From assembly GCF_000332135.1 (NCBI RefSeq), contig NZ_KB235896.1:62001-126000 (forward strand): a stretch of DNA of 64,000 nt, in the 5' to 3' direction. Positions within the stretch are counted from its first letter, which is position 1; every line of letters begins with the position of its first letter. Under the pieces are notes generated by a model. It had not been told where the DNA came from, did no database searches, and saw only the letters and a list, made by a program, of their open reading frames with translations. The translations under genes and the position numbers were made by a program. Below are positions 38,535-41,671 of the stretch, one piece after another. Source of the stretch: Anabaena sp. PCC 7108. Its GTDB lineage: Bacteria; Cyanobacteriota; Cyanobacteriia; Cyanobacteriales; Nostocaceae.

Positions 38535-38818
38535 CAGTTTTGTTATCCTAGAGGCTTTTTATCCTCTAGTTCTACAGGTTCTATATTCCCTGTAGCTCCG
38601 CGTACCTTTTGTACGTATGACTGTAAATGATAGAGAAATACGTACCCCCACACTCTTGGAGATTTATATTCTAGAAAACAATTTTCATTGCAATCTAGTT
38701 TCACTCTCTACGCTGTACGGTGTCAATAGCTTTTTATTTCCATTGATTACCACGGGATTAGCTTCTCAGCTTTCCCCGTATTTGCGGGGTTTTTTACGTG
38801 AGGCAAGTATTATAAAGT
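38535..38818 (-). ncRNA. Group I intron in nrdJ (284 nt)
   Basis: Between the codons for Gly409 and Glu410 of the reductase. The 5' exon ends CGTGTGGT; the intron sequence GCCTCACG about 14 nt inside pairs with it, leaving the conserved U-G wobble at the 5' splice site (P1). The intron ends in G (AAAACTG, then exon GAG), as group I introns do. A strong hairpin AACCCCGCAAATACGGGG-like stem and a GAGAGTGAAACTAG core segment are present. 284 nt is not a multiple of three and brings a stop (TAA) after two codons, so splicing is needed. No homing endonuclease inside. Confidence 0.88.
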
Positions 38819-40045
38819 ACCACACGGATTTAAGCCAAATCTACCTATTCTATGTTCTAGCTCATCAGCATCAATTTTAGGATGGTATTCTTTTATCCAT
38901 TGCTCGACTTTTCCTTGCTCGTAAGCTTGCAAAAAGTCTTTTTTAAGTTCTGGTGTATTTAATAAATCAGCATTAGCTCTAGCGACTGCTTCACCAGCCC
39001 ATTGAATTGCCCCTTCACCACTGTAATATTGTTTACGTACAGCAGCAATGGATTCTTCTAAAGTTGGTTTGCGGTGAAAGACTCGTGTATGGTTGGCCAT
39101 CCTCAGAGAATCGCGTTCTGGATCTATACGCCAGTTACCTTCTGCGTCTTGTTGCCAGAGGTTATCTTTAGCAGTTGCGCCTTGTTCATCTTCAGAAACG
39201 AATTGTCTCATCCCTGCGGACCTTCTTATATTGCCGGCAACAATTGTGACAGCAGCTTCATCAATTAATAAACAGCATTCAACTGAGTTTAATTGTCTGC
39301 CTATTGCCTTATTGAGAATAGAGGCGCAACGCTGATATAATCCTGGCAACTTCACAGGGTTAGCCATACCACCAAAACCTTTAAGAGTTTCCCCAGATTG
39401 GCGGATATCGCTAATATCAACAATTACCTGAACGTCACCTGTGAAGCGTTCATCCGTAGAAAGTTCTAAAAGAGTTTGATAGGATTTTACCCAACCTTCC
39501 CGACTGTCTCCAACGTGGATAGTAGCGGTGTTAGCTTCTATATGGATTTGTGTAAATTCACGACGCTGTTCTTGGGGTGTGTTGCCAATTTCGCCGCGAA
39601 TGGTGACATGGAGAAGATTACGGATAGGAGGAAGTTGATTAATATATTCTGGTTCGATGATCGCACCTGTACCACAGCCCATCATGGCTAGATCCATCAT
39701 CAACCCGAAAGCACTCCAGTCTACAAGGTTGGTGGAAGTGCAATTATAAGCGCCGGAGAAGTTTTTGGGTTTGGTTAACCAATCTGTACCACCAACCCAC
39801 ATCCAGCGACCACTGGGGAGGGATTTCATGTTTCGCTGCATCTTGTCTAAAATGGCAGCTTCTTCACGGGTGAGTTTTCCCAGTTCTACTAAACCGCGTA
39901 AAGTGCGATCGCATACCTGCTCCCATGTTTCTCTCAATCCTGCCTGTGTACGACGGCTGTAGGTTCTAAAAAACACCGGATTGGCGGCTGGAGCAGATTC
40001 TGGAAAGGTTGCACCCTGACGTTGACGTTCAAGTTCTCGAACCAT
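38819..40045 (-). CDS. nrdJ: Class II ribonucleotide reductase, exon 1 (N-terminal part)
   Basis: 409 codons from ATG 40045 (MVRELERQRQGATFPESAPA). The barrel and allosteric region are complete: LPSGRWMWVGGTDWL, SAFGLMMDLAMMGCGTGAII with the cysteine corresponding to Cys119, and AGNIRRSAGMRQF. It ends LNPCG with Cys408, the thiyl-radical cysteine, numbered as in the L. leichmannii enzyme. Makes dNTPs without oxygen dependence using adenosylcobalamin. The gene is interrupted directly after this motif by a group I intron. Confidence 0.95.
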
Positions 40046-40280
40046 AATAAAGTATGATTGCTTGTAAATAAACTATGACTATACGCCAAGTAGATTTAAG
40101 ATTAAAGATTGAAAAATTTACCACTTTGCGCTATGGCTTAGTCTGTGTCAATTATAACTATACTTTTGTTTTTTGTTTAAGTATAAAACCCTGAACGTGA
40201 ATTATCAGGGTAGTAGAATCTCAAAGTTTTACCTGTCAGGTTTTCCAAAATAAGATATCTGTGTAATTCTGCTATTTGTT
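39968..40280 (-). repeat. nrdJ 5' end and leader, copy A of a direct duplication
   Basis: The first 25 codons of nrdJ plus about 230 bp of leader are repeated at about 41170-41495 with point differences. The leader contains ACCCTG...CAGGGT hairpin (40188-40211), which on the minus strand is followed by TTTTAT and may terminate transcripts arriving from the upstream gene at 40303. Confidence 0.85.
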
Positions 40281-40302
40281 TAATTTTTCCGTTGACTATC
40301 CA

Positions 40303-41097: not shown

Positions 41098-41275
41098 CTA
41101 ACTAAATGGCGTAAAGTGCGATAGCAAAGCGCGACATAGGAATCGCTTTTTGTCCCATAACGGCAAGTTCAAAAACACCAGATTGGTTGCTGGAGCAGAT
41201 TCTGGAAAGGTTGCACCCTGACGTTGACGTATAACTCCTACGTCGTCACGCAAGCTATCAAGTTCTCGAACCATG
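41098..41275 (-). pseudogene. Truncated duplicate of the nrdJ 5' end
   Basis: From ATG 41275 the frame reads MVRELDSLRDDVGVIRQRQG, then ATFPESAPATNLVF, matching nrdJ codons 1-26 with a nine-codon in-frame insertion after MVREL, then departs and stops at 41098. The start of the toxin-like gene lies 33 bp after that stop, so this relic could serve as leader peptide for it. Confidence 0.8.
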
Positions 41276-41495
41276 ATAAAGTTGCTTACTTGTAAACAAA
41301 CTATGACTATACGCCAAGTAGATTTAGGATGGAAGATTGAAAATTTTACCACTTTGCGCTGTGGCTTAATTCGTGTAAATTGTAACTATAAAATGGTGTA
41401 AGTATAAAACCCTGACTGTATGCCAGGGTAGTAGAATCTCAAAGTTTTACCTGTCAGGTTTTCTGAAATAGGCTATCTGTGTCATACTGTTCTTT
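41170..41495 (-). repeat. nrdJ 5' end and leader, copy B of a direct duplication
   Basis: Aligns with 39968-40280 through the coding start, the ATGACTATACGCCAAGTAGA stretch, TTTACCACTTTGCGCT, the CCCTG...CAGGG hairpin (arms changed together) and AATCTCAAAGTTTTACCTGT. The spacer to the CHAT gene (41496-41671) shows nothing else. Confidence 0.85.
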
Positions 41496-41671
41496 TGTTT
41501 AATTCCTTCCCTAGCAAGAAGCTGAGTATTTTTTTAGGTTTGATTGCGCTGATGTAAATCTGATTATTTCAGTTTTGCGCTATATGTACACTAATATTGA
41601 TTAATATATATTATTAAAATGTATAATTTCCCTTCATCATTACTGCTAAACAATTACTGATTAATAAAATA

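Follow-up and report, generated by a model that had tools for sequence, protein, structure and literature searches.

The nrdJ gene of Anabaena sp. PCC 7108 is interrupted by a 284-nt interval that, judged by its sequence, is a group I intron of subgroup IA. We consider it very probable that this intron splices itself out of the message, that it has spread by homing at one nrdJ site, and that it lost most of its homing endonuclease gene (HEG) in the lineage of the DNA analyzed here, a stretch of 64,000 nucleotides referred to as the window. Among related cyanobacteria, the stages of a homing intron can be read at the nrdJ site as in a natural time series, from a full endonuclease gene through a partly deleted one, a scar and a clean ribozyme to an empty target, and this series sits at one codon of an enzyme that is indispensable to the cell.

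The reductase gene and its intron boundaries

The two exons of nrdJ together gave a full match to TIGR02505, the profile of adenosylcobalamin-dependent ribonucleoside-triphosphate reductase (RTPR), with exon 1 covering profile positions 17-378 and exon 2 covering 379-723. Since these matches meet at position 378/379, the joint leaves no gap in the enzyme, and the boundaries and class II reductase gene proposed in the initial annotation proved exact. In a PDB search with the whole protein, Cys408, which we take to be the cysteine that carries the radical, aligned within the motif GxNPCGEI with residue 408 of 1L1L, a class II enzyme of known structure; the same search with partial NrdJ gave no match. 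Among named NrdJ proteins, those of Aphanizomenon (92%) and Anabaena (89%) come closest. Feature positions are collected in Table 1.

Table 1. Features of the nrdJ locus and its intron (window coordinates)
Feature	Position	Strand	Description
nrdJ exon 1	40045-38819	minus	codons 1-409, ends NPCG, includes Cys408
P1 5' strand, in exon 1	38819-38826	minus	CGUGUGGU
Group I intron in nrdJ	38818-38535	minus	284 nt, between NPCG and EIIG, without endonuclease gene
Internal guide sequence (P1 3' strand)	38797-38804	minus	GCCUCACG; U-G at splice site
P3 5' strand	38783-38789	minus	3' strand 38646-38652; both-side changes in 6/7 pairs
P4	38775-38779 with 38752-38756	minus	covariation model
P5	38769-38771 with 38760-38762	minus	covariation model
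P6 and P6a	38719-38751	minus	covariation model
P7 5' strand, bulged A	38709-38715	minus	3' strand 38599-38604
P7.1 / P7.1a, extra IA domain	38659-38708	minus	covariation model
P8 hairpin	38612-38644	minus	holds the endonuclease gene in two relatives
Endonuclease-tail reading	38546-38638	minus	corresponds to last 31 residues of relatives' endonuclease
P9 and P9.1 hairpins	38548-38595	minus	also encode last HEG codons (ELEDKKPLG, stop) in HEG-bearing relatives
nrdJ exon 2	38534-37461	minus	starts EIIGADFHCN; stop codon 37461-37463
nrdJ empty-site sequences			CCGTGTGGT-GAAATT; natural allele CCGTGCGGA-GAAATT

A whole-genome search with TIGR02505 found one gene, and searches of the same genome for other reductases with PF02867 and PF13597 returned 0 matches each, the same profiles being positive in 11/14 and 9/14 control genomes. 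nrdJ is the sole ribonucleotide reductase detected in the genome, from which we infer that its message must be spliced. Reading past exon 1 without splicing adds T-L right after NPCG and then reaches a stop, two codons into the intron, so that failed splicing would truncate the enzyme as the initial annotation had stated, and splicing at the predicted boundaries joins GGT to GAG and restores the NPCGE frame.

The start and leader of nrdJ are duplicated in pieces around two small genes (39969-40286 and 41171-41504, 85-90% identical). One of these small genes has a weak likeness to the PBECR1 RNase-toxin fold (E 3e-4, below the cut-off). In Tolypothrix sp. FACHB-123 (locus L033), nrdJ codons 1-22 likewise occur a second time (77%), upstream of nrdJ.

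The interval is preceded by U and its last base is G, and exon CGUGUGGU pairs with intron GCCUCACG at seven of eight positions including the splice-site U-G. The U-G pair, the final G and the guide pairing described earlier are therefore all present in the window, but P1 also carries a U-U mismatch at its fifth position that had gone unremarked. This mismatch was found in 17/17 introns examined and counts against the group I reading; the U-G wobble at the splice site was present in 25/25 sequences. P1 is nearly invariant, with five of seven counted pairs never varying, and so contributes little covariation. All 60 introns that we collected lie behind the same NPCG site and end in G, figures to be read knowing that 42 were found by a pattern containing the exon end and that an intron was extracted only if it ended in G. 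The base triplet just ahead of the guide appears to covary with the codon that opens exon 2, as P10 would require (UUU/GAA 40, CUU/GAG 7, CUU/GAA 3 and UUU/GAG 1 among 51 distinct cases, as raw counts across related introns).

In the proposed mechanism, the guide GCCUCACG would hold exon CGUGUGGU, and a guanosine from outside, docked at the G-C pair of P7, would attack behind the U of the U-G pair. Exon 1 would then attack behind the last G of the intron, joining GGT to GAG.

Core structure and covariation

The initial annotation had expected the Rfam group I model to report a P3-P7 core in this interval and had named a miss as grounds against an intron. RF00028 gave no match in the window, including at E up to 10 on 551 bases, and a gathering-threshold scan of the window returned nothing, riboswitches included. 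The same model matched five of 18 same-site loci (17 relatives and the window's own, which is not among the five) at 23.6-33.7 bits with a best E of 7e-5, and none reached the gathering score of 50, which is a detection threshold rather than a defining feature of group I introns. In the best match, the P7 strands AGACUA and AUAUAGUC are placed where our hand-built model has them, and P7 of the window (C-A-GCGUA with UACGC-G) has the same shape in different letters. Because the core was found by RF00028 in these five loci and the covariation described below, counted pair by pair, is decisive, we read the failure on the window copy as a limit of the model. Introns of this sort can thus escape the public group I model, and nrdJ may as a result be split or wrongly labeled by automatic annotation.

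Covariation was counted in 25 same-site introns, namely the window copy and 24 chosen from 46, which have no endonuclease gene and are at most 308 nt long, near-duplicates and longer introns being left out. A model of 60 pairs in 12 helices, including the P3-P8 and P4-P6 domains and the P3/P7 pseudoknot, had 98.7% of 1500 cells paired, compared with 33-44% when partners were slid; the helix model was derived from the same 25 introns, so that this percentage leans in its favor, whereas the both-side changes seen at 36/60 pairs do not. None of 500 shuffles scored as high as the real alignment on any of five measures, and a 311-nt fold gave z = -6.2 against 100 shuffles. The group I claim that had been made from the window alone is in this way borne out by covariation.

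The guanosine site of group I introns is an invariant G-C pair in P7 beside a bulged base. The corresponding pair here (153-344) is GC in 25/25 introns, and the pair across the bulge (151-345) is GC in 16, CG in 8 and AU in 1. Subgroup IA has an extra P7.1 domain between the 5' strand of P7 and the 3' strand of P3; each of the four P7.1 pairs has both-side changes, with 100% of cells paired, and this covarying domain led us to assign the intron to subgroup IA. IA1 and IA2 are distinguished by P7.1/P7.1a being nested versus P7.1 and P7.2 lying side by side. The counted model has P7.1/P7.1a nested, and two relatives (G014 and G019) carry added sequence with a possible second hairpin. As far as such features can be tested from sequence, the interval has those that define a group I intron, and its splicing is predicted from them.

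The lack of an RF00028 match in the window would also be expected if the interval were a decayed insertion that does not splice, making nrdJ a pseudogene. This seems scarcely credible, as the core helices pair in the window copy itself, both exons are intact and no other reductase was detected.

Occurrence and descent within the order

A homologous intron was found at the same site in 17/59 relatives by inspection. Searching with the intron for similarity matched 20/60 genomes, the window's own included; all 18 inspected matches lie at the nrdJ site, and the two further ones are matches of 23-24 nt only. The initial annotation had proposed a comparison with nrdJ genes from other members of the order, which yielded the intron in 49/291 genomes by a guide-sequence pattern and an uninterrupted site in 57/291 by a degenerate NPCGEI pattern, some places of which may not be nrdJ. 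One genome (G032) is in both lists, and for genomes in neither the cause can lie in different codons, a reductase of another kind or gaps in the assembly. The best-scoring 80 of 321 named nrdJ loci are all uninterrupted, a selection that favors uninterrupted genes and was not used as a frequency. Presence of the intron is patchy even within genera: genus g28 has five genomes with the intron and four with an empty site, and g33, g73 and g91 are also mixed.

The empty sites bear on whether splicing might be regulated, with intron retention acting as a switch on dNTP supply. A single detected reductase gene and the stop that retention places two codons into the intron would suit such a switch. 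The window has no Rfam riboswitch above the gathering score, and the uninterrupted site in 57/291 genomes means that any regulation is dispensable, so we regard regulated splicing as very unlikely.

The sequence CCGTGTGGT precedes the intron in 18/18 introns that were found without using exon letters, and occurs at 5/59 empty places and 3/80 named empty loci. Either the guide freezes synonymous positions of nrdJ, or only such alleles can be invaded.

Several loci have further insertions or unusual arrangements. One genome (G187) has two intron places on contigs C98 and C104 (L126 and L166), with different introns of 244 and 254 nt, and locus L164 (G137) has a 428-nt intron with an 84-residue open stretch. 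At L118 (G107), stop-rich sequence, perhaps a second intron, interrupts exon 1 a few codons upstream of the intron site, and the same may hold for L119 (G157). Exon 2 reads FHCV instead of FHCN in 15 intron-bearing loci (L007, L008, L111, L112, L116, L118, L119, L127, L130, L131, L133-L136 and L161); six of these were translated further and are intein-like from that cysteine on, nine codons behind the intron. In L018, one more stretch that looks like an intein precedes SAGMRQ.

Intron and exon trees conflict. An exon tree built from the last 330 nt of exon 1 in 44/46 rows (G107 and G157 were dropped because exon 1 of G107 is interrupted and both are gappy in the alignment of a first exon tree) joins the window's genome (G000) with G001, G004, G031 and G035 (100/99). 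Intron data reject this group (AU p 0.002) and also reject the seven g33 genomes that exons join (AU p 3e-6). In the reverse direction, neither G000+G001+G031 (p 0.44) nor G126+G055 (p 0.135) is rejected by the exons; these reverse tests are weak, so that part of the conflict is weak as well. On the exon tree the path between G000 and G031 measures 0.25, on the intron tree 0.044, and over the last 330 nt of exon 1, G031 is 86% and G004 87% identical to the window. That first exon tree, together with exon identities of 79-81% for G031, was set aside as apparently distorted by an intein further upstream in some relatives. It is well supported by these trees that introns and exons differ in history, as homing would cause.

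Endonuclease genes, their remnants and known relatives

In another genome of the window's genus (G001), the same intron has an additional 872 bp and with it a 326-codon frame, which reaches from its opening in P3/P8 to P9.1. A genome from another family (G126) has a 326-aa homolog that is 78% identical, with the same borders. Over codons 1-300, the two genes differ by dN 0.13 and dS 1.75, which is near saturation, and the neighboring exon has dN 0.18 and dS 2.33, giving the same dN/dS ratio; by this pattern, the endonuclease protein looks selected. It carries a NUMOD3 motif, and its N-terminal stretch resembles T7 endonuclease I (Pfam Phage_endo_I E 0.004 and 6e-5, both below the cut-off; E 0.007 for a T7-endonuclease-I-like domain in a PDB profile search). 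The last ~21 codons double as the 3' strand of P7, P9 and P9.1 of the ribozyme. Four inserts were translated, of which two are this T7-endonuclease-I-like gene, one is a decayed copy and one is an HNH gene; the last, in G242, represents a separate endonuclease invasion nearer P5/P6.

No close relatives of the endonuclease were found in viral contigs, and tblastn against phage records at E 1e-3 found no relative either. We tentatively raise the possibility of a new homing endonuclease lineage, which would combine a domain like T7 endonuclease I, a Holliday resolvase, with NUMOD3 in a frame that doubles as ribozyme P7/P9/P9.1, and whose life-cycle steps could be read at one essential codon across one order. 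Abstracts and passages of the literature, including those of PMC3984707, PMC1995217, PMC12702839, PMC4227781, PMC6083498, PMC2814812, PMC3610870 and PMC6293099, contain no mention of the scar or of this type of endonuclease; Meng 2007 and the Arthrospira genome paper fall outside this set. F-CphI was considered as a T7-endonuclease-I-like comparison and dropped, as PMC6083498 gives it as Endo VII.

The longest stop-to-stop runs in the window's intron are 54 residues on the transcribed strand and 74 on the other, so it has no endonuclease gene, as had been noted. The description of a bare ribozyme holds to that extent, but the P8 loop contains what appears to be part of the tail of a lost endonuclease gene. 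The whole scar reads as 31 residues at 94% identity and begins at endonuclease residue 296 (E 5e-11 for the match in its own genome). About 10 of these 31 residues (38609-38638) fall outside the part common to most introns of the family, and the nucleotide match to the gene continues through the P8 loop.

Remnants of the gene are graded among relatives. Fourteen introns match from before residue 301, namely the two full genes, G280, G183, the window (94%) and nine others (47-64%). G280, whose core is 98% identical to the window's, keeps endonuclease residues 1-15, 147-175 and 257-326, and in G183 diverged versions of residues 12-36 and 220-326 remain. Matches in G055, G103 and G121 reach back to residue 280, and G031 and G185 match only from residues 306 and 302. 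In a tree of the core sequence alone (60 introns from 59 genomes), one clade (100/100) unites the window with G001, G280, G031 and G185, and it is placed beside G126, G121, G055 and G103 (93/77). Full, partial, scar and clean copies are found in one clade, which argues for an ancestor that most simply carried the gene, and the window's bare ribozyme most likely reflects its loss.

An improbable alternative is that the intron never held the gene in the window's lineage, with the P8 loop being original and the gene inserted beside it later in G001, fusing to existing codons. Because the last ~21 endonuclease codons overlap the ribozyme core, a partial match is expected in most introns anyway: 57/60 have a sense-strand match to the end of the gene, which in 43 cases starts no earlier than residue 301. 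The match of the window starts earlier and at high identity, the gene is present in another family at the same borders, and three separated pieces of it persist in G280 on a nearly identical core, all of which speak for loss. Loss is a parsimony argument, and in introns beyond the clade of the window it is hard to tell fully apart from ancient homology of the loop or from chance, as in the nine introns without an endonuclease gene that match at 47-64%. According to the preferred reading, the intron would have spread through the nrdJ genes of the order by homing at a single site, driven at least partly by the endonuclease gene in P8, until most of that gene was deleted in the window's lineage, and the remaining ribozyme would still splice and be unable to home alone.

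Meng, Zhang and Liu reportedly described a group I intron in a ribonucleotide reductase gene of Nostoc punctiforme PCC 73102 (2007, J Bacteriol 189:2150). Passages of PMC3984707, PMC1995217 and PMC12702839 cite this Nostoc punctiforme intron, in agreement with the remark in the initial annotation that such introns had been reported before, here in 2007. By its title and these citations, it is alike in type of intron and in interrupting a reductase gene of a cyanobacterium, a comparison that does not extend to insertion site; the title also names an insertion sequence element, which would not fit into the window copy. The kind is thus already known from cyanobacterial reductase genes, and the nrdJ intron is a further member with an unusually readable history.

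Phage introns of subgroup IA, such as that of T4 td, add a P7.1 domain to the core and have P9/P9.1 hairpins. The nrdJ intron has the same plan of P7.1 and P9/P9.1, but it sits in a bacterial chromosome, in a class II reductase gene, and its P7.1/P7.1a look nested rather than side by side. T7 endonuclease I presumably shares a nuclease superfamily with I-Ssp6803I, and the endonuclease of the nrdJ introns would then belong to it too. Passages of PMC1995217 give I-Ssp6803I as a homing endonuclease of the PD-(D/E)XK type, from the tRNA-fMet intron of a cyanobacterium; set beside it by description only, the relatives' endonuclease differs in being T7-endonuclease-I-like with NUMOD3. IStron group I introns, which according to passages of PMC4227781 have IA2 features and an IS element inside the intron, share an IA-type core with P7 and P9 additions. 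They differ in that the four nrdJ-intron inserts translated here are endonuclease genes or a decayed copy.

The intron DNA also resembles phage stretches, for example in crAss-like phage cr118_1 between two ORFs annotated as DNA helicase. P9.1 and the 3' end of the intron resemble stretches of Staphylococcus, Clostridioides and gut phages at 66-90% (H1-H20, the best 20 of 64), and stretches in seven plasmids at 87-94% (H21-H27).
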